Assembly: GCF_028618695.1 (NCBI RefSeq)
Contig: NZ_JAQIVI010000026.1
Location: 1 to 10,230 of the forward strand
Length of the DNA stretch: 10,230 nt
DNA from: Natrinema soli
GTDB taxonomy: Archaea > Halobacteriota > Halobacteria > Halobacteriales > Natrialbaceae
Direction of reading: 5' to 3'
A model generated the notes under the pieces. The model searched no databases. It was not told the DNA's origin and worked only from the letters and a program-made list of their open reading frames with translations. A program made the translations under genes and the position numbers. This document shows, piece by piece, positions 1 to 9,839 of the stretch; position 1 is the stretch's first letter, and each line of letters begins with the position of its first letter.

Positions 1-431
1 ACGCCGCCGGTGCCGATCTGATCGTCACGCCGGGCAACCACGATACCATGCTCGAGGAGGCCTTCGGCGGCGAGACGGCCGCCGAATACGAACTGGCCGA
101 CGGCGAAACGGTGGTCTGTCACGGCCACGAACGGCCCGATGCGACGGCGGACCGCTACATTATCGGCCACGACCACCCCGCGCTGGCGATCGAGGGGCGC
201 AAACGGCCGTGTTTCCTCTACGGTCCCGCCACCTTCGAGGGAGCGGACGTGCTCGTGCTCCCGGCATTCACCCGGCTGGCCGCCGGTTCGACCGTCAACG
301 GAATGGACGGCCGCGACTTCCAGACGCCGCTCGTCCGTGACGCCGACGGGTTCTACCCCGCGGTCAGGGACGACTCGAGCGGCGAGACGCTCTGGTTCCC
401 GCCGCTGGGCGAGTTACGGCGGTTGCTGTGA
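1..431 (+). CDS. SbcD/Mre11-related archaeal metallophosphoesterase, C-terminal part (5' end outside window)
   Basis: The reading frame is open from the first bases (first full codon at 3) to TGA at 429-431, giving 142 visible residues. It contains three metallophosphoesterase landmarks: PGNHD at about 30-44, HGHE at 120-131 and GHDHP at 165-179. In calcineurin-like phosphoesterases these Asn, His and Asp residues bind the two catalytic metal ions. The order and the short C-terminal tail fit the small archaeal SbcD-related phosphoesterases (TIGR00024 type) rather than full Mre11, which has a longer capping domain. Members often sit beside Lhr-type helicase genes, but that neighbour would lie outside the window. 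The N-terminal DxH and GD motifs are missing only because the window starts inside the gene. The internal ATG at 48 is not the start, because it lies after the GNHD motif. The substrate (nucleic acid or phosphodiester) is inferred from the family. Confidence 0.9.
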   Translation, partial: AAGADLIVTPGNHDTMLEEAFGGETAAEYELADGETVVCHGHERPDATADRYIIGHDHPALAIEGRKRPCFLYGPATFEGADVLVLPAFTRLAAGSTVNGMDGRDFQTPLVRDADGFYPAVRDDSSGETLWFPPLGELRRLL

Positions 432-465
432 TTGCCGTCTACGTGTTCGATAGAGGAGAACTATG

Positions 466-990
466 TCTCACACCAGACCGACCATCCGGTGTGCGGTGGC
501 GCGCGCTGTCGGCCGGCTGAGCGTCGCGAGGCGCGAACACAGTGAGCGCCTCGGAAAGCGAGCGGTGACCGCAGGGAACCGTGAGCACAGTGAGGCCGGC
601 TGACGACGTTGCGCGAGGTCTTCGCGAACGGAGTGAGCGAAGTCGTTCGAGACGGCAAAGCCGTCTCGTGATGCGAAAAATCTCCGATTTTTCAGCAGTT
701 CGGTAGAGCAAGCTCTGACGGTGGATGAGTGAGCGCCGTGCGGCGCGAACGTTAGCGCGGGACCGGAGGTCCCGCGAACCATACGAACGGTGCGCGGTTC
801 GGAGCGACTGCCGGGAGCGAGAACCGCGAGGTGAACGGGGAACGAGGTGACCCGTGAACGGGCCTTCGGCCCGTGAGTAGCAATCGGCTGGGGAGGGCGT
901 GGCGATTCCCTGTTGCCACGATAGCAGGCACGTCATCTTACTCAGTCACTAGCAGAACCCACCGTTCCATTCACACGTCTACTGAATGCA
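466..990 (+). repeat. Hairpin-rich repeat element, long copy A
   Basis: This 525-bp noncoding block matches the reverse complement of 8115-8309. Shared blocks, in order, are 490-513 (24 nt identical to 8263-8286), 589-617 (24 of 29 nt match 8222-8250), 882-902 (21 nt identical to 8199-8219) and 911-927 (17 nt identical to 8174-8190). A weaker match runs to about 990 and includes CAGAACCC and TACTGAA. Relative to the short copy, this one has two extra stretches, about 521-588 and 618-880, built of small hairpins. It starts 34 nt after the metallophosphoesterase stop codon. No transposase and no clear terminal inverted repeats are visible. It may be a MITE-like element or a structured RNA family. 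I cannot name a known family with confidence. The ends are approximate. Confidence 0.85.
527..874. repeat. Array of nine perfect short hairpins inside copy A
   Basis: Nine inverted repeats with perfect arms follow one another. Arms are 527-534/546-553 (8 bp), 620-625/637-642 (6 bp), 648-656/660-668 (9 bp, loop AAA), 675-682/686-693 (8 bp, GAAAAATC with loop TCC), 705-709/712-716 (5 bp), 733-738/741-746 (6 bp), 756-764/768-776 (9 bp, loop GGA), 793-800/821-828 (8 bp) and 858-864/868-874 (7 bp, loop TTC). Most of these are absent from the short copy at 8115-8309, so they look like expansion modules. On either strand the transcript would fold into a string of stem-loops. Confidence 0.85.
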
Positions 991-1255
991 CGAACGGCTC
1001 GAGAGACCGAATCACGAGTCGGAAACACGACTCATCCCGACAGATCGGAGAAAACAGCCCTCGCGGCCTGCCGACCGCTCTCCATCGCACCCTGAATGGA
1101 CGATTACCGCGGTACTCGCCCGCGAGATAGATCGGTCCCGCGGGACGCCGACGTCCGGCAGCCCTTCGAAACACCTCGGCGGCCGCGCGAACTGGGCGAA
1201 CGGAGAGCGGTCGCTCGACCGGCCGCACTTCCGGATTCTGCGTCGACTCTCGCCG
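991..1255. other. Intergenic stretch without a recognised gene
   Basis: I see no convincing coding region here. The open frames that cross it are arginine-rich, lack recognisable motifs and run into the repeat element or across the small membrane gene. It does contain a stem-loop at 1016-1033 (GAGTCG, 6-nt loop, CGACTC) and a perfect 12-bp palindrome at 1135-1146 (GTCCCGCGGGAC). It may be decayed sequence or an untranslated region downstream of the small minus-strand gene at 1256-1390. Confidence 0.5.
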
Positions 1256-1390
1256 TCACACGTTCGCGAAGAGCCGAAGGCCGATACCGAGGAGAATCAC
1301 CAGGATACCCAGCGCGGTTGCGATCGGTGGAATCGGGACGAGGAGCAATCCGACGCCGACGATCATCACCACCGTCGATACTCGAACCAT
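1256..1390 (-). CDS. Small membrane protein, 44 residues
   Basis: A minus-strand frame from ATG (1388-1390) to TGA (1256-1258) encodes 44 residues starting MVRVSTVVMIVGVGLL. Two hydrophobic stretches flank a central PIPPI turn (about residues 6-18 and 23-38). The protein ends with the basic and polar tail LRLFANV, as expected of a tiny helical-hairpin membrane protein. Its hydrophobic composition is unlike the arginine-rich noise in the other frames here, which supports real coding. A TATA-like GCGTTATGCC (complement of about 1411-1420) is centred about 26 nt before the ATG, as expected for a leaderless haloarchaeal gene. From memory, similar short hydrophobic proteins with a PIPP turn are annotated as hypothetical in haloarchaea. 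I do not know a function. It is divergent from the thioesterase gene, with 131 nt between starts. Confidence 0.7.
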   Translation of the reverse strand: MVRVSTVVMIVGVGLLLVPIPPIATALGILVILLGIGLRLFANV

Positions 1391-1410
1391 GTACCCTGGT
1401 CGATGGCTCG

Positions 1411-1420
1411 AGGCATAACG
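1411..1420 (-). promoter_or_regulatory. Putative TATA box of the small membrane protein gene
   Basis: The minus strand reads CGTTATGCC, centred near 1416, which is 26 nt upstream of the ATG at 1390. That spacing fits leaderless transcription, but the match to a haloarchaeal TATA box is only moderate. Confidence 0.35.
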
Positions 1421-1491
1421 CGTCGGCAGGCATTCACAGCGATTTGACCGGCGATCGGAATCGGAGAACGAACGCTTGCCGTGGCCGGTAC

Positions 1492-1499
1492 GGTTTTGC
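1492..1499 (+). promoter_or_regulatory. Putative TATA box of the thioesterase gene
   Basis: GGTTTTGC is centred about 27 nt before the ATG at 1522, the usual spacing for a leaderless transcript. No Shine-Dalgarno sequence lies directly before that ATG. The T-rich core is a weak match to TTTAWA. Confidence 0.35.
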
Positions 1500-1521
1500 T
1501 CGTCGCGGCGACGGTGTCGGT

Positions 1522-1998
1522 ATGGGAGATCACGCTCCGAGCGAATCCGAACGCGAGTCCGACGGCCCCGCCTTCCAGCCCGTCTTCGAAAATCGCGTCC
1601 GCTTTGCCGAGACCGACCAGCAAGGGATCGTCTTCTACGGCGAGTACTTCACCTTTCAGGACGAGGCTGTCTCCGCGTTCTTCCGGGGGCTGGGCTACGG
1701 CTACGACGACATGCTCGAGGACGGCTGGCAGATCCACGTCGTCAACACGGAACTGAACTACCGCGCCGGCGCGGAGTTCGAAGACGTGATCGTCAACGAG
1801 CTGCGGGTCGCCGACATCGGAACGGCGAGTCTCGAGTACGAGTATCGGGCCACACGGAAGCACGACGACGAGATCCTGGCCGACGGAACCGTCACGCAGG
1901 TCGCCGTCGATCTCGAGACCGAGGAACCGACTCGAATTCCAGACGAATTCCGCGACGCCGTCGCGGCGTTTCAGGGAGGCCTCGAGTCCGACGAGTAG
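1522..1998 (+). CDS. Acyl-CoA thioesterase, hotdog fold (4HBT family)
   Basis: The 158-residue product has a single hotdog domain (about residues 20-145). It opens with RVRFAETDQQGIVFYGEYF, the family's active-site loop, with Asp32 at the position of the catalytic Asp of 4-hydroxybenzoyl-CoA thioesterase. The following segment (FQDEAVSAFFRGLGY) matches the long hotdog helix. Such enzymes hydrolyse acyl-CoA to free acid and CoA in the cytoplasm, and the acyl group cannot be read from the sequence. I chose ATG 1522 because the hotdog domain starts about 20 residues later. The frame stays open upstream to 1096, but that extension is arginine-rich noise crossing the intergenic region, and a TATA-like box lies 27 nt before 1522. 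The gene converges on livF, with 57 nt between stop codons. A link to the transporter's substrate is possible but unproven. Confidence 0.88.
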   Translation: MGDHAPSESERESDGPAFQPVFENRVRFAETDQQGIVFYGEYFTFQDEAVSAFFRGLGYGYDDMLEDGWQIHVVNTELNYRAGAEFEDVIVNELRVADIGTASLEYEYRATRKHDDEILADGTVTQVAVDLETEEPTRIPDEFRDAVAAFQGGLESDE

Positions 1999-2029
1999 CG
2001 CCACGGCTCCGCCGGTCAGTTCAGTACCG

Positions 2030-2049
2030 AAAACGTCCGAAACGGAAAA
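2030..2049 (-). terminator. Putative T-rich terminator downstream of livF
   Basis: Just after the livF stop codon (2056-2058) the minus strand carries three T runs (TTTT, TTT, TTTT) spaced within 20 nt, the kind of oligo-T signal at which archaeal transcription stops. There is no strong stem. It lies in the 57-nt gap where the thioesterase and the operon converge. Confidence 0.4.
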
Positions 2050-2055
2050 CGGTGG

Positions 2056-2775
2056 TCAGTGGACGCCGACGTACGCCTCGCGAACGTACTCGTTGTCGTG
2101 GAACTCGTCGTGAGTCCCCGACAGCTCGATCTCGCCGGTTTCGATCAGCGAGAGTCGTTCGGCGTGGTTCAGCGCGAACGTCGAGTTCTGCTCGGCGAGC
2201 AGGATCGTCAGCCCGGTCTCCGCCTGAAGCGTCTCGAGCGCGTCCCCGATATCCTGGATGATGACCGGTGCGAGTCCGAGCGTCGGTTCGTCGAGCATCA
2301 ACACGTCGGGGTCGCTCATCAGCGCGCGACCGACGGCGAGCATCTGCTGTTCGCCGCCGCTCATGGTCTCGGCCTCCTGCTCGCGGCGTTCGTCCAGCCG
2401 CGGGAACAGGTCGTAGACCATGTCGAGGTCGTCTTCAACCTCGTCGCGATCGGTTCGGAACTGGGCGCCCATCAGCAGATTCTCGTGGACCGAGAAGTAC
2501 GGGAACAGATCCCGATCCTCGGTACAGTAGATCAGGCCGTCCCTGACGATCTGCTGTGGTTTCACGGTGGCGAGATCCGTTCCGTCGTAGCGGATGGTCC
2601 CGTCGTACTCGACGAAGCCGGCGATGGCGTTGAGCATGGTCGTCTTGCCGGCCCCGTTCGGGCCGATCACGCCGTAGATTTCGCCCTCGTTGATCGACAG
2701 CGAGACGCCTTTCAGTGCGTGTGACTTGCCGTAGTAGACGTTAAGGTCCTCAACCTCGAGTATCGGATCAGTCAT
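2056..2775 (-). CDS. livF: Branched-chain amino acid-type ABC transporter, ATP-binding protein LivF
   Basis: This 239-residue protein is a complete ABC ATPase domain of normal LivF length. Walker A is GPNGAGKT (residues 38-45), the signature is MSGGEQQ (138-144) and Walker B is VLMLDEP (158-164). The segment LLAEQN (192-197) occupies the switch region, as is usual in LivF. With LivG it forms the cytoplasmic nucleotide-binding pair that powers the LivH-LivM channel in HAAT-family uptake. The ATG shares one base with the livG stop (TAATG, base 2775), so the two genes are translationally coupled. A GGAGGG sequence lies just upstream, within livG. It is the last gene of the operon. The transported compound cannot be assigned from this subunit: branched-chain amino acids are the family default, and amides, urea or small organic acids also occur. 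Confidence 0.95.
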   Translation of the reverse strand: MTDPILEVEDLNVYYGKSHALKGVSLSINEGEIYGVIGPNGAGKTTMLNAIAGFVEYDGTIRYDGTDLATVKPQQIVRDGLIYCTEDRDLFPYFSVHENLLMGAQFRTDRDEVEDDLDMVYDLFPRLDERREQEAETMSGGEQQMLAVGRALMSDPDVLMLDEPTLGLAPVIIQDIGDALETLQAETGLTILLAEQNSTFALNHAERLSLIETGEIELSGTHDEFHDNEYVREAYVGVH

Positions 2776-3503
2776 TATAGTCCCTCCCCGGCGAGGTACG
2801 CCTCCTGGACCGCGTCGTCCTCGGCGATCTCCTCGGGCGTTCCCGACGCGAGGAAGTCGCCGTTGTTGAGGACGACGACGCGGTCGACGAGTTCCATCAG
2901 CCCGCCCATGTTGTGGTCGACGACGACCATCGTCATGCCTTCCTCGCGGAAGCGTTCGATCTGAGCGGCGAGTTCCCCGATCTCCGCCTGGTTCATCCCG
3001 GCGAAGGGCTCGTCGAGCAACATGAGCTCGGGCTCGGTTGCCAGCGCCTTGGCGATCTCGAGGCGGCGAACGTCCGCGTGGGGTAGTTCGTCCGGCATCT
3101 CCTGGAGATCGTCTTCGATGTCGATGCGGGATGCGTAGTCGTATATCTCCGCCTGGCTGGCACCGCCGCGCAGCGAGACGATGCTGTTAGGGAGCGTGAA
3201 CAGCTTGATGTTTCCGGCGACCGACATCGAGTCGATCGGGTTCGATTCCTGTGAGACTCGCGAAAGTCCCTTGTTGACGACCTGGTGGGTCGAATCGTCG
3301 GTGATGTCGGTACCGTTGAACCGGATCGACCCCGCGGTGACGCCGTAGATGCCCATGATGCAGTTGAACACCGTGGACTTGCCCGAGCCGTTCGGGCCGA
3401 TCAGGCCGACGATTTCGCCCTCGTCGACCTCGAACGAGAAGTCGTCGACGGCGACGAGGCCGCCGAACTTCTTCGTGAGATGCTCGACTTCCAGCACGCT
3501 CAT
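2775..3503 (-). CDS. livG: Branched-chain amino acid-type ABC transporter, ATP-binding protein LivG
   Basis: The 242-residue ABC ATPase has Walker A GPNGSGKST (36-44), Walker B LMLLDEP (160-166), a switch His197 (VVDHN) and the LivG-type C-terminal end AVQEAYLAGEG. Its signature region is unusual. Where LivG proteins normally read like LSYGQQRRLEIA, this one reads LPHADVRRLEIA (140-151), so the signature Ser, Gly and Gln are replaced while RRLEIA is kept. Without biochemistry it is unclear whether this weakens ATP hydrolysis at one composite site or is a tolerated lineage variant. I have a vague memory of similar motifs in other haloarchaeal LivG-like proteins but cannot confirm it. The start ATG 3503 overlaps the livM stop (ATGA), preceded by a full Shine-Dalgarno match at 3508-3517. 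It pairs with LivF, encoded next. Confidence 0.93.
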   Translation of the reverse strand: MSVLEVEHLTKKFGGLVAVDDFSFEVDEGEIVGLIGPNGSGKSTVFNCIMGIYGVTAGSIRFNGTDITDDSTHQVVNKGLSRVSQESNPIDSMSVAGNIKLFTLPNSIVSLRGGASQAEIYDYASRIDIEDDLQEMPDELPHADVRRLEIAKALATEPELMLLDEPFAGMNQAEIGELAAQIERFREEGMTMVVVDHNMGGLMELVDRVVVLNNGDFLASGTPEEIAEDDAVQEAYLAGEGL

Positions 3504-4618
3504 CGGCGATCACCTCCGAGCCGCTCGAGCCCGTACCACAGTTTGCGGAACAGGCCCTGGCGGGCGAACACGAGGATCAGCAGGACGATTACCCAGAGGA
3601 TCGACCACTTGATTTCGCTCTCGAACCCTCCGAGAACCACGTCCTCTAGCATGATGATGAGGAAGGCACCGCCCAGCGGTCCGAGTATCGAACTCATCCC
3701 GCCGACGACGGCCATCGCGATCATCTCGATGCTGTTGTGGACTGCGATGAACGTATCGGGGTCGACGGTCCCGATTCGATGAGCGAGGAGAACACCGCCG
3801 ATGCCCATCGGTATCGAACTGAGCACGAACGACCAGATCTTGAACTTCGTCGCGTTGATCCCGGCGGCTTCGACCGCAGACTCGTTCTCCCGGATCGCCA
3901 AGAGGACGAGTCCGATATTCGAGCGCGCAACGACCAACAGTGCGGCCGCGATCACGAGCATCGGGATCATGAAGACGTAGGTTCGCATCACCGGATCGGT
4001 GCTGTAGACCGCTTCGACTCCGGAGATGCCCAGTTCACCGCCAGTGTACTCGCTCAGCGGGTTGATCACCCGGGAGAAGATCAACACGGCGACGAACGTG
4101 ATCAGCGAGAAGTACGGGCCGCTCAGTCGGAGCGACGGCAGTGCGATCGCGAGACCGATAACCAGTGCCGCGAGAATCGAGACGGGAATCGTGATCAACA
4201 TCGGCATCTCCGGGTTGACGTTGTGGATCAACATCGCGGTCGTGTACCCTGCCCCGCCGGACAGCACCGAATGACCGAAACTGATGTACCCGGTGTATCC
4301 GCTCTGGATGTCCCAGCTCATTGCGAAGATGCCCCAGATGCAGGCCATCCACGTCGCCTGAACTAAGGTGTAGTTCCCCCAGAACGGGATCGTCAAGAGC
4401 GCAAGCAGCGAGCCGAACAGCACCAGGAACTGGAGGCCGTTCATCTCGCCGAAATACCGGCCGAGCGACCAGTTGTAGATGTTCGCAAGCGGCTGGAGAG
4501 CTCGATTGAGGGGACCTGTGACGGTACTCAGTCCATTGATGGCCGTACCGCCAAATCGGCTGGCGGCACCTCTGAAGCGCCCGGCGATACCACTCGAACG
4601 GTCTGTTTTACTACTCAT
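3500..4618 (-). CDS. livM: Branched-chain amino acid-type ABC transporter permease LivM
   Basis: The 372-residue protein has about nine to ten hydrophobic segments and the LivM landmarks. SGYTGYISFGHSVLSGGAGY marks the conserved early transmembrane region, and AIRENESAVEAAGIN is the cytoplasmic coupling loop that contacts the ATPases. VVGGMSSILGPLGGAF lies near the end. About 55 polar, glycine- and arginine-containing residues precede the first membrane segment, a longer N-terminus than is typical. I chose ATG 4618 (MSSKTDRSS). A TTG two codons upstream (4624) is also possible, but a GGAG at 4625-4628 sits 6 nt before 4618 and leaves no room for an RBS for 4624. The gene overlaps livH by 8 nt and livG by 4 nt. 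With LivH it forms the transmembrane heterodimer in the cytoplasmic membrane. Confidence 0.93.
   Translation of the reverse strand: MSSKTDRSSGIAGRFRGAASRFGGTAINGLSTVTGPLNRALQPLANIYNWSLGRYFGEMNGLQFLVLFGSLLALLTIPFWGNYTLVQATWMACIWGIFAMSWDIQSGYTGYISFGHSVLSGGAGYTTAMLIHNVNPEMPMLITIPVSILAALVIGLAIALPSLRLSGPYFSLITFVAVLIFSRVINPLSEYTGGELGISGVEAVYSTDPVMRTYVFMIPMLVIAAALLVVARSNIGLVLLAIRENESAVEAAGINATKFKIWSFVLSSIPMGIGGVLLAHRIGTVDPDTFIAVHNSIEMIAMAVVGGMSSILGPLGGAFLIIMLEDVVLGGFESEIKWSILWVIVLLILVFARQGLFRKLWYGLERLGGDRR
3508..3517 (-). promoter_or_regulatory. Perfect Shine-Dalgarno site of livG
   Basis: The minus strand reads GGAGGTGATC, fully complementary to the archaeal 16S rRNA 3' tail. The GGAGGTG core ends 7 nt before the livG ATG at 3503. 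It is embedded in the last codons of livM (LGGDRR) and decides the livG start. Such a strong site inside an operon contrasts with the leaderless-looking genes around it. Confidence 0.8.
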
Positions 4619-5501
4619 GGGCAAACTCCCTCCCGAAGAGCCCCTCCGGTCGGAGGAGCAAGACGGCGACGAGGACGACCAGCGAGAAGATCCCCTGGTA
4701 TCCCGTGCCGAGGAATTCGAGCGTGAATTGCTCGAGATAACCGATGAAATAGGCGGCGACCACGGAGCCTTTGATGCTGCCGATACCGCCGATTACGACG
4801 ATGATGAACGCGATCGCGAGCGGGTTGAGCCACATACTGGGTGAGGTGGTCTGAAGCGTTCCCAGGAACACGCCGGCGATTCCGGCCAGCGCGCCCGCGA
4901 TCAACCACGTTCGTGATTTTACGGACACGAGATCGACGCCGGTTAGCTGTGCGCCTCGTTCGCTCATCGACGATGCGAGGATCGACCGCCCCTCGTCGGT
5001 CCGGCTAACGTAGTACCACAGGAGGCCGATCGAAATCCACGAGACGATGAACCCGAGGATGTACATGTGATTGATCCGAGTACCGGCCCACTCGAGATTG
5101 AGCGAGCCGTCCACGATCGGGAGGAGCGTCCGTGGACTCGCACCGAATTGGTGATGGACGAGTTCCGTGAGGAGGAGTGCGATCATGACCGTCGAGAGGA
5201 ACGTGATCACGATGTTGTCCTCGATGTGTCGGACAAGCCCACCGTATAGCAGGTACGATGCGAGCGCAGTCACGACGATCGCGATGACGAATCCCAGTGC
5301 CGTCGGTACCGTGATCGAGCCGAACACCGACGACGACGTGACCACTAAGAACGAGTACGCACCGATCATGATCAGCCCGCCGTGGGCGAGATTCAACACG
5401 CCCCCGACGCCGAAGATCATGGTAAATCCGATGGCGACGAGCGCATAGATCGCGCTCATCATCGCCCCCAAGATCAGTACCGAGAGAATTGCATCAAGCA
5501 T
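4611..5501 (-). CDS. livH: Branched-chain amino acid-type ABC transporter permease LivH
   Basis: The 296-residue membrane protein has the normal LivH length and about eight hydrophobic segments. Landmarks are AIYALVAIGFTMIFGVGGVL followed by LNLAHGG (the conserved N-terminal signature), ERGAQLTGVDL with VKSRTWLIAGALAGIAGVFLG (cytoplasmic coupling region) and VVIGGIGSIKGSVVAAYFIG near the C-terminus. It forms the channel with LivM. The ATG (5499-5501) lies 6 nt after the stop codon of the binding-protein gene. Only a weak GGATG-like sequence, about 14 nt upstream, could serve as RBS, so coupling to the preceding gene is likely. The 3' end overlaps livM by 8 nt. The assignment to the HAAT family is firm, but the substrate is inferred. 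Confidence 0.94.
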   Translation of the reverse strand: MLDAILSVLILGAMMSAIYALVAIGFTMIFGVGGVLNLAHGGLIMIGAYSFLVVTSSSVFGSITVPTALGFVIAIVVTALASYLLYGGLVRHIEDNIVITFLSTVMIALLLTELVHHQFGASPRTLLPIVDGSLNLEWAGTRINHMYILGFIVSWISIGLLWYYVSRTDEGRSILASSMSERGAQLTGVDLVSVKSRTWLIAGALAGIAGVFLGTLQTTSPSMWLNPLAIAFIIVVIGGIGSIKGSVVAAYFIGYLEQFTLEFLGTGYQGIFSLVVLVAVLLLRPEGLFGREFAHE

Positions 5502-5507
5502 ATCGTC

Positions 5508-6857
5508 TTACATCCAGGATGGCGGCATGTGGTCTGCCGTGCTGTCCGCTTTCGGATAGACGATCTGTTGACCTCCGCCGCCGTTACCGTCGGGCTGCCA
5601 CTGCGTGATCGGGTAATTGACCTTATCGTCCTCGTTTCGCGTCTCCTTGACGTCGTGGGGATACTCCGAGTCCGTCCCGTAGAGAGAGATATCCGTCGCC
5701 GCGCCGGTGTGTTCGACGCTCAGCATGGCGTCGACGATATCGTCGAGATTGTCACTGTGGTTGGCGGTCCCGGCCTCCTCGACGACCTTGCTGTAGAAAT
5801 GGATCGCATCGTAGGTGTTGAATCCCATGTACATAGGCTTGCTCGGCGCCTCCCCGTCGCCGTGCTTCTCCTCGTACTTGTCGACAAAGTCCATCGTTTT
5901 GTCCGTTATCGGACCGACCCCGCCGCCGCCGGACTGGGAGGTCGTCTCGTAGATACAGCCGCCGTTCGACAGGTCCCAGAACTGGGGTGACATCGATGCG
6001 ACGTGTACGCCCTCGAGAGCGAACGGATAGTTCCCGGCCCAGTCCTTGAGGAGCTGTCCCCGCCCGCCTTTCGCAAAGAAGCGGATCACTGCGTCCGCAC
6101 CGGCGTCTTCGATCCCGTCGAGGAACGGCGTGAAGTTCGAGGTGTCCGCGCCTGGGACTTCCTCGTAAACGAGGTTGAGACCGCGGTCCTCGAGATAGCC
6201 CGGAAGCAAGTTGCGGAACGGCCTCGTCCAGGCCGCCTCTTCGGGCAGATGCGCGAAGTCCGTCCAGCCGTGTAACTCGTTGAGATACTCGGCGTAGTCG
6301 GCGATCGCTTCGGCCTGCAGTTCGGAGTTGATCGGGCCCGTTCGAAAGATGTTCTTGTACTTATCGTAGTCCTCGTTGACCGTGTTCTTCAGCGTACTCG
6401 AGTCCGCCGACCCGGTGATGAGGAACGGAACAGTGCTGTCCGCAATCGGCTGATCGATGATCGCCTGGGTGACTTCGCTGCTGAACGTCCCCACGATCAC
6501 GTCGACGTTCTCCTTGTTGATCATCCGCTCGACGATCGGCGTCGTCGTGCTGACCTCCTGTTCGGTGTCCTCGTTGATCAGTTCGATCTCCTGATCGAGC
6601 ACCCCGTCCCCCTCTTTGAGTTCCTCGACAGCGATCTCGGCGCTGCGCTTCGATCCCTTCCCCATCGACAGGCCGGTCGGTGCGAGATGCCCAATCGTCA
6701 GCGTTCCGTCGTCACTGCCACCCTCGACACCACCGAGACAGCCGGCCAGCGTCGTCGTCACCGCACCGGCACCGGCCGCTCCGAGAAACGTTCGCCGTCC
6801 GAGTGAGTGCTTACCATCCCTACTCAAGTTGCGATTATTATTATCTTCGTTAGCCAT
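5508..6857 (-). CDS. Branched-chain amino acid-type ABC transporter substrate-binding lipoprotein (Tat)
   Basis: The 449-residue protein starts with a Tat lipoprotein signal: polar N-terminus, twin arginine GRRTFLG (20-26), a short Ala/Gly/Thr core and the lipobox LAGC with Cys40. A Gly/Asp/Ser linker follows, then a Peripla_BP_6 (LivJ-like) two-lobe domain. That domain begins LTIGHLAPTGLSMGKG and continues with IVGTFSSEVTQAIID, then FLITGSADSS, where ligand-contacting serines usually lie. Folded export by Tat and lipid anchoring are standard for haloarchaeal binding proteins. It captures the substrate outside the cell and delivers it to LivHM. It is the first and probably most abundant product of the operon, with livH only 6 nt downstream. 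The name livJ would imply leucine, isoleucine or valine binding. I leave the symbol empty because relatives bind amides, urea or aromatic acids. Confidence 0.93.
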   Translation of the reverse strand: MANEDNNNRNLSRDGKHSLGRRTFLGAAGAGAVTTTLAGCLGGVEGGSDDGTLTIGHLAPTGLSMGKGSKRSAEIAVEELKEGDGVLDQEIELINEDTEQEVSTTTPIVERMINKENVDVIVGTFSSEVTQAIIDQPIADSTVPFLITGSADSSTLKNTVNEDYDKYKNIFRTGPINSELQAEAIADYAEYLNELHGWTDFAHLPEEAAWTRPFRNLLPGYLEDRGLNLVYEEVPGADTSNFTPFLDGIEDAGADAVIRFFAKGGRGQLLKDWAGNYPFALEGVHVASMSPQFWDLSNGGCIYETTSQSGGGGVGPITDKTMDFVDKYEEKHGDGEAPSKPMYMGFNTYDAIHFYSKVVEEAGTANHSDNLDDIVDAMLSVEHTGAATDISLYGTDSEYPHDVKETRNEDDKVNYPITQWQPDGNGGGGQQIVYPKADSTADHMPPSWM

Positions 6858-6865
6858 TGTGTACC

Positions 6866-6886
6866 AGTGAGTTACCGATTCTCACT
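6866..6886 (-). promoter_or_regulatory. Inverted repeat / hairpin in the leader of the transport operon
   Basis: AGTGAG (6866-6871) and CTCACT (6881-6886) form perfect 6-bp arms around a 9-nt loop, ending 8 nt before the binding-protein ATG. A GGAGAG sequence (complement of 6885-6890) overlaps the upstream arm. It could be a leader hairpin that affects translation, or a repressor site downstream of the promoter. The role is inferred. Confidence 0.45.
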
Positions 6887-6905
6887 CTCCAGTTTTGAGT
6901 CACCC

Positions 6906-6913
6906 GTAATAAA
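6906..6913 (-). promoter_or_regulatory. Putative TATA box of the transport operon
   Basis: The minus strand reads TTTATTAC, a good haloarchaeal TATA-like sequence. Transcription would start about 26 nt downstream, near 6883, leaving a leader of about 25 nt before the ATG at 6857. A second candidate, TGTATAGT, lies upstream at about 6943-6950. Confidence 0.45.
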
Positions 6914-6942
6914 GGTGAGGGAAGTTAGCAAGGATCTTGTGA

Positions 6943-6960
6943 ACTATACACGAGTGTAGT
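6943..6960. promoter_or_regulatory. Imperfect palindrome upstream of the transport operon promoter
   Basis: ACTATACACGAGTGTAGT is a near-perfect inverted repeat with one unpaired base (ACTA-ACAC against GTGT-AGT). It lies about 35 nt upstream of the proposed TATA box and downstream of the MBL hydrolase gene. Position and symmetry suit an activator or Lrp-like binding site, but no regulator gene is in the window. Confidence 0.35.
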
Positions 6961-7034
6961 ATTTTACATTTTTCTCGAGGGACGCAGAGAAACAGGTGAC
7001 GCGGGATAGACGCTGCTCGAGCCCGAGCGACCGT

Positions 7035-8018
7035 TCACTGACGTTCAACGGACTTCGTCCTCGAGCCGGTGCCGACCGGTTCCTCGAGGAGCCGATACTC
7101 GCCGTGTTCGAACGCGACGACGCCGTCGTGGCGGAGGTGATCGAGATGGGCGAAAGTCTCTCCCGGCCCGTGGACGATGTGGATTCCCTCGAGGTCGCCG
7201 AACAGGTGGGCGCTGACCGTCCAGGCGTCGGCCGGTCCGTGGTCGTCCAGAAACGCGAGGATCGCATCCGTTCGCTCGCGGTGGTGCTCGAGGATCGCGT
7301 CTGCGCGAGCGGTCGGCTCCGCGATCGGATCGCGGTGGCCGGACCAGACTCGCTCGTAGTCCCGATCGATCAGTCGGTCCAACGTCGCGACGTAGCGCTC
7401 GAGCGGGCGCTCGACTCGGACGTCCGCGCCGCCGACGTTCGGCGTGTACACCGGCAGGAGGGCGTCGCCGACGAACGCCTCGTCGCCGCTCTCGGTTTCG
7501 AAACAGCACAGCCCCGCCGCGTGCCCCGGCGCGTGAACCGTCTCGAGCGTCCGACCGCCGACCGCGAGCGTCTCCCCGTCCTCGATCGGAGTCGGGTCGG
7601 CCGGCCGTCCCTTGATGTCGGCCGACTCGAAGAAGGCCAGGAGTTCGGCTCGTGCATCGTCGGGGACGCCCCACTCCTCGAGGAGTTCCCGACGCCGCTC
7701 CTCGACGGTGGCGACGGCGTCGGGGTCCTGTGCGACCAGCGGGGCGTCGGCCTCGTGGACGTAGACGGTCGCGTCGCTTTCGGCCTGGATTTCGCCGGCC
7801 AGTCCTGCGTGATCGACGTGGAAGTGGGTGAGGACGATGTCGTCGACGTCGGCGAACTCGTAGCCGCGCTCGGCGAGCCCCTCGCGGAGGTCTCGACGGA
7901 CGTCGTCGGTGGCGATGCCGGTATCGACGAGTGCGAGTTCGTCGGCATCGTCGTCGGCGAGGACGTAGGCGTTGTTTCGGCCCTCGAACTCCTCGTTTCC
8001 GAGTACGATGCGGTCCAT
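7035..8018 (-). CDS. MBL-fold metallo-hydrolase with C-terminal winged helix (LACTB2/glyoxalase II-like)
   Basis: The 327-residue protein has a metallo-beta-lactamase core. The metal ligands are visible: HFHVDH (65-70), His166 in APGH, Asp185 in VGDALLP and His228 in SGHRDP. After the core, about residues 240-312 (beginning DAILEHHRERTDAILAFL) form a winged-helix tail like that of LACTB2-type proteins. Cytoplasmic hydrolysis of a thioester, phosphodiester or lactone is plausible, but the substrate cannot be read. I chose ATG 8018 (MDRIVLGNEEFEGRNN) over ATG 8033, because the TATA-like AATTATTAG at 8043-8050 is 28 nt before 8018 but only about 13 nt before 8033. The gene lies upstream of the transport operon on the same strand, with a 177-nt gap that holds the operon's own promoter elements, so it is probably a separate unit. 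Confidence 0.9.
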   Translation of the reverse strand: MDRIVLGNEEFEGRNNAYVLADDDADELALVDTGIATDDVRRDLREGLAERGYEFADVDDIVLTHFHVDHAGLAGEIQAESDATVYVHEADAPLVAQDPDAVATVEERRRELLEEWGVPDDARAELLAFFESADIKGRPADPTPIEDGETLAVGGRTLETVHAPGHAAGLCCFETESGDEAFVGDALLPVYTPNVGGADVRVERPLERYVATLDRLIDRDYERVWSGHRDPIAEPTARADAILEHHRERTDAILAFLDDHGPADAWTVSAHLFGDLEGIHIVHGPGETFAHLDHLRHDGVVAFEHGEYRLLEEPVGTGSRTKSVERQ

Positions 8019-8042
8019 ATCGTCTACCCACATGTCGCCCGC

Positions 8043-8050
8043 TAATAATT
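8043..8050 (-). promoter_or_regulatory. Putative TATA box of the MBL hydrolase gene
   Basis: The minus strand reads AATTATTAG, centred 28 nt before ATG 8018, the spacing expected for a leaderless haloarchaeal transcript. This site is the reason for preferring 8018 to 8033 as start. Confidence 0.5.
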
Positions 8051-8114
8051 CGCGCGATAGCGGAACGGCACGAGACGAAGGGACGGTCTCGCTCGGCTCG
8101 GTAAAACGTCAGTA

Positions 8115-8309
8115 GCATTTCAGTACAGTGCGAATAGAGAGGGTTCTGATGGAAAGGAGTGAGAAGAAATGTTCTGCTATCGTGGCAACACGGAATCACC
8201 ACGCCCTCCCCAGCCGATTCGCTCGCACAATATCGTCAGCTGCCCTCACTCTCGTTCGGCCAGCCGACAGCGCGCGCCACCGCACATCGGTTGGTCAGTC
8301 TGAGTGAGA
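8115..8309 (-). repeat. Repeat element, short copy B (inverted relative to copy A)
   Basis: This 195-bp noncoding block is the reverse complement of the conserved parts of 466-990. Matching blocks are 8263-8286, 8222-8250, 8199-8219 and 8174-8190, and a weaker match runs to about 8115. It lacks almost all of the hairpin array of copy A. What remains includes TCGGCTGGCCGA (about 8257-8268), which could form a small hairpin. It begins 33 nt after the gatB stop codon in gatB's direction and fills most of the gap between gatB and the MBL hydrolase promoter. No coding region is visible in it. The outer limits are approximate. Confidence 0.85.
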
Positions 8310-8342
8310 AATCAAAAGTAGAACATAACCACTAACCGCCAA

Positions 8343-9839
8343 TCAGTCCTCGAGTTCGGCCCGCAGCAACTGATTCACGTCACCGGGGTCCGCGCTCCCG
8401 CCGGTCTTCTGCATCACTTGGCCGACGAGGAAGTTGATCGCGCCGTCGTCGCCCGACTCGTAGTCGTCGACGGCGTCCGGGTTCTCGTCGATCGCGTCGA
8501 CGACGGCCTGTTGGACCTCGTCCTCGCCGGTCTTGCCCAGCCCCTCCTCGGACACGACTTCGTCCGGCGTTCGGCCGTCGTCCAGCATCGATCGCAGGAC
8601 CGTCTCGCGGGCGTTCTTCGCCGTGATCTCGTCCTCTGCAACGAGTTCGACGAGTCGCTTGACTTCCTCGAGGCGGCTCTCGATCCCGGTGATTTCGATA
8701 TCGCGGTAGTTGAGTTCGCCCAGCAGGTTGTCCGCGACCCAGGTCGCCGCGAGGTCGGGATCGAACTCGCCGGCGACGTCCTCGTAGAAGTCCGCGACCT
8801 GTTTCGTCGAGGTGAGCTTCGAGGCGGCCTCCTCGCTCAGCCCGTACTCCGCCTGAAATCGCTCGCGGCGGGCCGAGGGGAGTTCGGGGATCTCGATTTC
8901 GTCTTTCCAGTCCGAGACTCGCAGCGGCGGCAGGTCGGCCTCCTCGAAGTAACGGTAGTCCTTCTCCTCCTCCTTGGAGCGCATCGAGACCGTGATTCCC
9001 CGACTCTCGTCCCAGTGGCGCGTCTCCTGCTCGACCGCGCGGCCGCGCTGGATGGCGTTCTTCTGGCGAGTCTCCTCGTAGGCCAGCGCTTTCTCCGCGC
9101 CCTTGTGACTCGAGATGTTCTTGACCTCTGTCCGGTTGGCCGCCTCGAGCGCGTCCGTCCCGATCTCGTCGGTATCGTCGCCGTCGATCGCTTCGTCGGG
9201 GATGATCGAGAGGTTGGCGTCGATCCGCAGGCTGCCGTCGCGTTCGGCGTCGAAGACGCCCAGGTACTCGAGGACTTCCTCGAGTTCGGCCAGAAACGCG
9301 CGCACCTCGCCGGGACTGCGGAAGTCCGGCGCGGTGACGATTTCCATCAGCGGCGTCCCCGCGCGATTGTAATCGACGAGCGTGTACTCCGCGGAATCGA
9401 TGCCGCCACCGCCGCCGACGTGCTGGAGACTGCCCGGGTCCTCCTCTAAGTGTGCGCGCTCGATCGCGACGGTTCGGCGCTGGCCCTCGACGGAAATCTC
9501 GAGTTCTCCCTCCTGACAGATCGGCTCGTCGTACTGGGTGATCTGGAAGTTCTTGGGCAGGTCGGGGTAGTAGTAGTTCTTCCGGTGGAAGCGGGTCTCC
9601 TCGGGGATCTCGGCGTCGATCGCCTTGCCGATCTTGACGGCGGCTTCGACGGCGGCCTCGTTGAGCACCGGCAGCGCCCCCGGCAGGCCGAGACAGACCG
9701 GGCAGACGTTCTCGTTGGGCTCGTCGGTCCGGTCGGTCGAACAGCCGCAGAAGATCTTCGTGTCGGTCTCCAGCTGGACGTGGACCTCGAGACCGATGAC
9801 GGTCACGAGGTCGCCCTGCTGGACGGTCTGGGCAGTCAT
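8343..9839 (-). CDS. gatB: Asp-tRNA(Asn)/Glu-tRNA(Gln) amidotransferase subunit B (GatB)
   Basis: The 498-residue protein is full-length GatB. It begins IGLEVHVQLETDTKIFCGC. The zinc-site cysteines are at 31, 33, 46 and 49 (CGC and CPVC), followed by LGLPGALPVLN, then RKNYYYPDLPKNFQITQYD and YNRAGTPLMEIV in the kinase-like domain. The last ~150 residues form the helical plus YqeY-like tail that recognises tRNA. GatB phosphorylates mischarged Asp-tRNA(Asn) and/or Glu-tRNA(Gln) and amidates it with ammonia from GatA. Archaea usually use GatCAB for Asn and GatDE for Gln. The frame stays open to 9932, but ATG 9839 (MTAQTVQQ) is the better start: the family domain begins 14 residues later and a TATA-like TTTTA lies 29 nt upstream. 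gatA and gatC are not in the window. It encodes housekeeping translation machinery. Confidence 0.96.
   Translation of the reverse strand: MTAQTVQQGDLVTVIGLEVHVQLETDTKIFCGCSTDRTDEPNENVCPVCLGLPGALPVLNEAAVEAAVKIGKAIDAEIPEETRFHRKNYYYPDLPKNFQITQYDEPICQEGELEISVEGQRRTVAIERAHLEEDPGSLQHVGGGGGIDSAEYTLVDYNRAGTPLMEIVTAPDFRSPGEVRAFLAELEEVLEYLGVFDAERDGSLRIDANLSIIPDEAIDGDDTDEIGTDALEAANRTEVKNISSHKGAEKALAYEETRQKNAIQRGRAVEQETRHWDESRGITVSMRSKEEEKDYRYFEEADLPPLRVSDWKDEIEIPELPSARRERFQAEYGLSEEAASKLTSTKQVADFYEDVAGEFDPDLAATWVADNLLGELNYRDIEITGIESRLEEVKRLVELVAEDEITAKNARETVLRSMLDDGRTPDEVVSEEGLGKTGEDEVQQAVVDAIDENPDAVDDYESGDDGAINFLVGQVMQKTGGSADPGDVNQLLRAELED

Follow-up and report, generated by a model that had tools for sequence, protein, structure and literature searches.

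The stretch of DNA analyzed here (10,230 nt from Natrinema soli, contig NZ_JAQIVI010000026.1; hereafter the window) is haloarchaeal. It holds the 3′ end of a phosphoesterase-like gene (3–431, plus strand), whose best NCBIfam matches fall below the cut-offs, a thioesterase gene (1522–1998, plus strand) and, all on the minus strand, an ABC transporter operon similar to those for branched-chain amino acids or urea (2056–6857), a gene for a metallo-beta-lactamase-fold hydrolase (7035–8033) and gatB (8343–9836). Two copies of a noncoding repeat lie between genes and are mutually inverted: copy A (463–986, plus strand; blastn and inverted repeats I1 and I2) comes after the phosphoesterase-like gene and copy B (8119–8312, minus strand; blastn) after gatB, both having the same strand as their preceding gene. 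A and B are members of a large family dispersed through the class Halobacteria, and one intricate fold is maintained in this family through paired changes while the sequences vary.

The original prediction had placed two inverted homologous noncoding copies at 466–990 and 8115–8309; the homology was confirmed, and the boundaries proved close to those found by blastn. The window contains 82 inverted pairs (25 longest listed), and those of greatest length, two in number, join A to B, namely 474–523 with 8253–8302 (50 nt, 88%) and 882–927 with 8174–8219 (46 nt, 96%). Comparison of A with the reverse complement of B by blastn gave three collinear matches in the same order, located in A at 463–523 (E 2e-15), 589–617 (E 1e-4) and 882–986 (E 7e-20). 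The common unit therefore spans 463–986 in A and 8312–8119 in B (524 and 194 nt, respectively), and the homology extends past the fold described below into the flanks on both sides.

The core of the repeat is a single-strand fold of about 140 nt, consisting of helix P1, hairpins P2 and P3 and a conserved G-rich strand. All 70 compact copies that were aligned have one architecture with two hairpins of variable sequence, the first between the 5′ box GCGGTGGCGCGCGCTG and GYGCGAGGGATG and the second between GYGCGAGGGATG and AATCGGYTGGGGAGGGYGTGG, and a tail comes last; longer copies, A among them, contain extra hairpin-like modules. In P3, base-pair steps alternate with tandem G-A mismatches. The Watson–Crick steps of P3 swap among types such as GC/GC, GT/AC and AC/GT, and the inner GA opposite GA is kept in 58 of 62 copies. 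RNAalifold gave 31 pairs for 62 compact copies, from which a covariance model, R1, was made. In this training set, 97.2% of 1919 cells pair, and 188 cells are changed on both sides and still paired, compared with 60.7 in shuffles; when the partners are slid by 1–3 columns, pairing drops to 23–45%.

Since the structure was derived from the 62-copy alignment itself, the pair counts were repeated on matches outside the training set. A set of 49 matches from three genomes was 93.8% paired, with 217 double changes against 61.8 in shuffles, and a set of 29 matches (27 loci, 16 genomes) was likewise 93.8% paired, with 123 double changes against 33.1; the two sets partly overlap and both were aligned to the model, which biases them toward the fold, and the shuffles and slides use the identical alignments. 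P1, P2 and P3 hold firm in these matches. In the 49-match set, pairing falls to 81% at the two outer ends of the terminal helix, and P4 (GGAG with YTCC), whose letters in the 62 copies were partly set by the scan pattern, reaches about 80% pairing and no more in diverged matches. A covariance model was the check suggested along with the original prediction, and the pair counts revealed what is expected of a structured RNA, namely covarying pairs above the shuffle and slide controls, in the training copies and in both outside sets.

The 206 G-U cells, compared with 11 A-C cells, show that the fold belongs to the strand described here. The conserved unpaired strand of the core is TCGGYTGGGGAGG; together with a following spacer and TGG, it is kept in 71 of 78 diverged matches, a count in which two sets overlap partly and in which the model itself favors TCGGYTGGGGAGG. 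Folding energies of single copies are ordinary (z of −1.69 for B and −0.19, −0.66 and +0.71 for three other copies; +1.02, +0.64, +0.64 and +0.59 on the opposite strand), so the case for the fold rests on covariation. A search of the window against Rfam gave no match at the gathering threshold; with E allowed up to 1, three weaker matches below threshold came up, all of them away from A and B; the copy at locus L075 also had no match.

R1, which was built without the window copies, finds B at 8160–8283 (minus strand; 117.5 bits, E 2e-36) and picks up A as two pieces, 787–941 (E 7e-14) and 500–667 (E 3e-10). The structured core of B has lost hairpin P3. It comprises the 5′ box GCGGTGGCGCGCGCTG (8268–8283; inverted repeats and R1), hairpin P2, which contains tandem G-A mismatches, together with its following linker (8229–8267; R1 and folding), the P1 3′ strand GTGCG (8224–8228; R1) and the 3′ box including the conserved G-rich strand (8174–8219; inverted repeats and R1), all on the minus strand. 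In A, on the plus strand, the 5′ box GCGGTGGCGCGCGCTG (493–508) provides the 5′ strand of the terminal helix and of P1. It is followed by P2 (509–605, inside the R1 match 500–667), whose loop is enlarged by modules as read from the sequence, and by the P1 3′ strand, GCGCGAGG (611–618). A module inserted between P1 and P3 (619–722) was also recognized by reading the sequence and is of a kind found in other long copies; the comparison was with L020 and L075, two copies at one locus. The enlarged P3 region, GGATGAG ... AATCGG (723–887), rests on the same kind of reading and on the R1 match 787–941, and its piece 727–752 by itself scores only E 0.25 with R1. The 3′ box AATCGGCTGGGGAGGGCGTGGCGATTCCCTGTTGCCACGATAGCAG (882–927) is 96% complementary to 8174–8219, and the tail (GTTCCATTCACAC..TACTGA, 928–986) is common to B and some Natrinema copies. 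The surplus of A, about 330 nt, thus consists of internal modules in the P2 loop, the P1–P3 interval and the P3 region.

Some pairings proposed earlier for A and B have to be reassigned within this fold. The segments TCGGCCGGCTGA and TCGGCTGGCCGA, regarded as near self-complementary, do lie in a helix, as the 5′ arm of P2; their own self-complementarity is incidental, and their partner is the second P2 arm, some 20–30 nt further on in B. The pairing AATC...GATT is used in the minimum-energy fold of the copy at L049 but forms no consensus helix; in the consensus, AUC has its partner in GAU at the base of P3. Similarly, for the proposed GTGG...CCAC, the consensus partner of CCA is UGG in the 5′ box, although the nearer GTGG is taken in the minimum-energy fold of B. 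It should also be mentioned that a short frame is opened in both copies by GTG two bases past GGGGAGGG (899, plus strand; 8202, minus strand), reading M-A-I-P-C-C-H-D-S-R in A and M-V-I-P-C-C-H-D-S-R in B. As a coding frame it was rejected, because one-base indels were seen by eye in several other copies or alignment rows.

To assess the spread of the family, genome, plasmid and viral collections were searched. At E 1e-5, R1 has matches in 135 of 292 genomes of the class Halobacteria (strict filters, 10 candidates scored per genome); further copies in related genomes, whose absence would have spoken against the original prediction, are thus plentiful. With 150 candidates scored, 7–82 matches per genome were found in 16 class genomes. 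Another 15 genomes had 9–92 matches each; they represent Natrinema, Halopiger, Haloterrigena, Natronococcus and Natronolimnohabitans, five genera that we place in Natrialbaceae. The matches are very unequal in eight Natrinema species (9, 9, 23, 29, 43, 52, 55 and 92), and they need not equal copy numbers, since long copies can score twice, as A does. In a sample of the phylum, 14 of 246 genomes match, and all 14 were already in the class sample. An exact scan of genome contigs for the 3′ box found at least 120 stretches, and the 80 titles among the matches listed are nearly all from the same five genera, with two metagenome-assembled haloarchaea. In a plasmid collection, B as a query found relatives in Natrinema and Natronococcus only, and with diverged copies as queries the named matches came also from Halorussus, Halobaculum, Haladaptatus, Halococcus and Haloarcula. 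No annotated feature lies beneath the plasmid matches listed (one record has no annotation). A phage collection had no match to B or to a diverged copy, and two scans of viral contigs gave one match, apparently coding sequence by eye, and none, respectively. Searches of the open literature with core strings and by topic, beyond which lie most subscription papers and all supplements, yielded no name for the family; it is seemingly nameless in the sources searched and may be described elsewhere.

The presence of copies varies between species. In the gatB–hydrolase gap, copy B is absent from all six genomes with both flanks at 800 nt or less (L135, L141, L143, L144, L146 and L147), and R1 has no match in these gaps. 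The gap of Natrinema ejinorense (L141) contains a fragment resembling B (78% over about 51 nt, E 1e-5). Scrambled 5′-box- and P2-like fragments on both strands were seen at 2335–2710 of this locus, as if an old inverted pair had decayed in the gatB gap. More generally, 21 syntenic intervals had no pattern copy as their anchor, and the core motif is missing in 19 of them (16 after merging repeats, i.e., one row obtained with two orthologous queries and two rows of one genome each); of the remaining two, one is the locus of the query itself and the other the partner in an inverted pair.

Copies shared by species at one locus were also compared. P2 can differ wholly at such a locus with the core conserved (L075 vs. 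L132, L036 vs. L096). In seven comparisons at six loci, 27 pairs are double-changed and 14 single-changed and still paired, 10 form in one species only and one in neither, and some of the broken pairs lie where swapped hairpins fail to register. The cleanest comparison is that of L027 (2483–2634, Natrinema mahii) with L083 (4520–4671, N. thermotolerans), where the flanks are about 90% identical and AC/GT in P3 is replaced by GT/AC and GC/GC with pairing kept (three double changes, three single, none paired in one species only or in neither). Such same-locus changes fit conversion between copies and selection in place alike.

The genomic setting of the copies was analyzed as well. No recurrent neighbor gene was found among 254 adjacent proteins, which fall into 192 clusters, the largest with 5 members. 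Among the 119 of 135 copies with both neighbors called, 45 lie in convergent gaps (76 of 401 control gaps, Fisher P 4e-5) and 17 in divergent gaps (115 of 401, P 0.001); these statistics depend on a rough gene caller, which miscalled the window's own thioesterase, and on orthologous copies that are not independent. The 57 copies in codirectional gaps are oriented with the genes in 30 cases and against them in 27. For 81 copies, the median distance past the stop codon of the upstream same-strand gene is 84 nt. Upstream of the copies, the conservation profile, judged by eye, has a weak preference for T (50% at −27) and is otherwise without promoter-like features.

Copies often come in inverted pairs, whose polarity differs by lineage. 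At Natrialbaceae anchor loci, a tail-to-tail partner lies 12–75 nt off in 11 of 120 cases and a head-to-head partner in none of the 120; in the genome G133, head-to-head pairs occur at 7 of 16 loci. In G133, a tail motif, TGGAGTCGTGATT, occurs 24 times (0 for a backward-pattern control), and 22 of these 24 loci contain an R1 match at E 0.01 or better, which indicates that this tail belongs to the repeat family. The inverted pairs of G133 bear outward TGGAGTCGTGATT-type tails, and no parent transposon carrying the tail was seen at the tail-motif loci. At L107, L119 and L127, the tail (AGCAGGACGCTTC...) is, by eye, repeated two or three times directly 3′ of one copy, which suggests slippage or repeated insertion at the 3′ end.

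Based on the above results, we suggest, with a little more than even confidence, that A and B are non-autonomous repeats, similar to repetitive extragenic palindromic (REP) sequences or miniature inverted-repeat transposable elements (MITEs), whose spread or upkeep needs the fold of about 140 nt. Unequal copy number, presence and absence between species, polar inverted pairs and indifference to gene direction together make the profile of a mobile non-autonomous repeat, and a maintained single-strand fold, unusual for such a repeat, suggests the folded strand as the substrate. The family would spread in trans by means of a host or transposon enzyme that recognizes the folded single strand. Copies would survive chiefly where promoters stay undisturbed, which may lead to their build-up between convergent genes in Natrialbaceae. 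The divergence of P2 and P3, even at one locus, would probably come from conversion between copies, and P1 and the G-rich core would have to persist for recognition. The original prediction had left a choice between a MITE-like family and a repeated structured RNA; parts of both are supported, by dispersal (7–92 matches per genome in 31 genomes, presence varying by species, inverted pairs) and by covariation, respectively. A mixture, in which a repeat spreads because its RNA or single strand gets bound, is possible.

The REP sequences and bacterial interspersed mosaic elements (BIMEs) of bacteria are noncoding and have many short intergenic copies, frequently in inverted pairs, with one short hairpin as the structural unit. 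The likeness of the haloarchaeal repeat to them is one of behavior: many short intergenic copies, no coding capacity and inverted pairs, tail-to-tail in Natrialbaceae and head-to-head in G133. However, the repeat is about 140 nt long with several covarying helices, and the Y1 transposase (RAYT) associated with REP sequences is missing in many high-copy genomes (see below). It resembles MITEs in being non-autonomous and intergenic; as possible further likenesses, a minority of Natrialbaceae copies have a weak TCAGTA or TACTGA end motif, and the pairs of G133 have their outward TGGAGTCGTGATT-type tails. Neither a parent transposon nor a target duplication was seen for it.

Several results weigh against the interpretation as a mobile repeat. 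A partner enzyme was not found among RVT_1, Y1_Tnp and TnpB. The reverse transcriptase RVT_1 is absent from 72 of 72 genomes, and a retroelement, SINE-like or group II derived, was rejected on this ground. Y1_Tnp is present in 37 of 52 high-copy genomes and absent from 15, so it was rejected as a necessary partner; it also occurs in 13 of 20 genomes sampled from the 157 without a model match. At 30 TnpB loci (of 35 TnpB matches in five genomes), R1 gave one partial match of 24 nt and 15 bits and none with the core. The end motifs are weak, with TCAGTA upstream of 10 and TACTGA downstream of 4 of 96 copies (0 in control stretches in both cases). At the base level, no target duplication and no precise empty site were found at the junctions, the flanks being too diverged across species, and absence at a site could reflect loss instead of gain. 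Furthermore, both species possess the anchoring copy in 32 of the syntenic intervals, a number that includes reciprocal pairs. The aligned loci have a conserved core and drifted flanks, which fits host function equally, though core conservation is partly a selection effect, since these loci were found by the core pattern. The caveats on the neighbor statistics belong here as well, and two smaller sets of 20 copies, one from G281 and one from G133 and G085, have 5 and 4 convergent cases, i.e., no excess.

The main rival is that the copies are genes of a structured RNA family serving the host, each being transcribed and folded, with the G-rich strand bound by a protein or partner RNA and the paralogs arising by amplification. 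We consider it rather unlikely, even though the paired changes across distant genomes, the 27 double-changed pairs that keep pairing at the same locus, the persistence of TCGGYTGGGGAGG with its spacer and TGG in diverged matches and the occurrence in nearly half of the class genomes speak for such a family; the 157 of 292 class genomes without a match at E 1e-5, the very unequal numbers among close species, the lack of promoter-like upstream conservation beyond the weak T preference and the ordinary single-sequence folding energies speak against it. In a bolder and slightly more doubtful version, the family would be a new functional RNA class of Halobacteria with tens of copies per genome, in which two Watson–Crick pairs alternate with tandem sheared G-A pairs beside a near-invariant G-rich strand (TCGGYTGGGGAGG...GTGG). 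The haloarchaeal cytoplasm contains molar potassium, and the G-rich strand could be a candidate potassium-stabilized two-layer quadruplex or a Shine–Dalgarno mimic, tuned to cytoplasmic potassium. In its ornate fold with conserved unpaired stretches, the repeat is similar to the large bacterial RNAs GOLLD, ROOL and OLE; it differs from them in its tens of dispersed copies per genome and has no match in Rfam.

The excess of copies in convergent gaps, their position a median of 84 nt after a same-strand stop codon and the location of both window copies after a same-strand gene would fit 3′-end signals, such as transcription terminators or mRNA stabilizers, at convergent gene ends. Such signals are very unlikely to explain the family, given the random direction between codirectional genes, with a fold present on only one of the two strands, and the two other sets without a convergent excess. 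We regard as equally improbable that the copies are relics of IS200/IS605 of the PATE type, the fold being a transposon end or a TnpB guide RNA scaffold. Among the haloarchaeal elements with a description that we found, the PATEs and SMRs of Haloquadratum walsbyi come closest; both are transposase-free and present in many copies, the PATE copies are heterogeneous, without target duplication or a transposase gene, and the mobilization of SMRs is termed enigmatic (PMC3119063). The repeat, with a core of about 140 nt and units of 194 and 524 nt, is likewise too short for a transposase gene, and its fold is read from one strand, as the PATE-type origin would have it. On the other hand, the core is missing from all 30 TnpB loci examined (of 35 matches in five genomes), G133 combines 82 R1 matches with one TnpB match and no Y1_Tnp, no IS200/IS605 or TnpB link was seen, and the best-conserved part is the central fold and not the ends.

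The repeat is abundant, has a conserved multi-helix fold across the class Halobacteria and is seemingly unnamed in the sources searched. If it is mobile, its fold, together with the polarity of its inverted pairs, suggests an archaeal mobilization that recognizes a single strand and would proceed without reverse transcriptase and, in many genomes, without Y1 transposase. Should it be an RNA family, the family is large and occurs in cultivable organisms. In either case, the covariance model provides a direct means of annotating and testing the family. In addition, the family may explain some purine-rich GAGCGAGCGA-type spacers as putative hairpins with tandem G-A steps.

At L188, L194, L195, L196, L204, L014 (position 4401) and L040, copies of the family are followed or adjoined by another dispersed repeat. 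Read by eye, with the start motif at 12 places, this second repeat consists of GGGTGGGACTGAAAGGGGCTG, a stem, GCAAGCACC and a closing CAGGGGCTTTC, and its GAAAG/CTTTC arms lie beside facing GGG runs.

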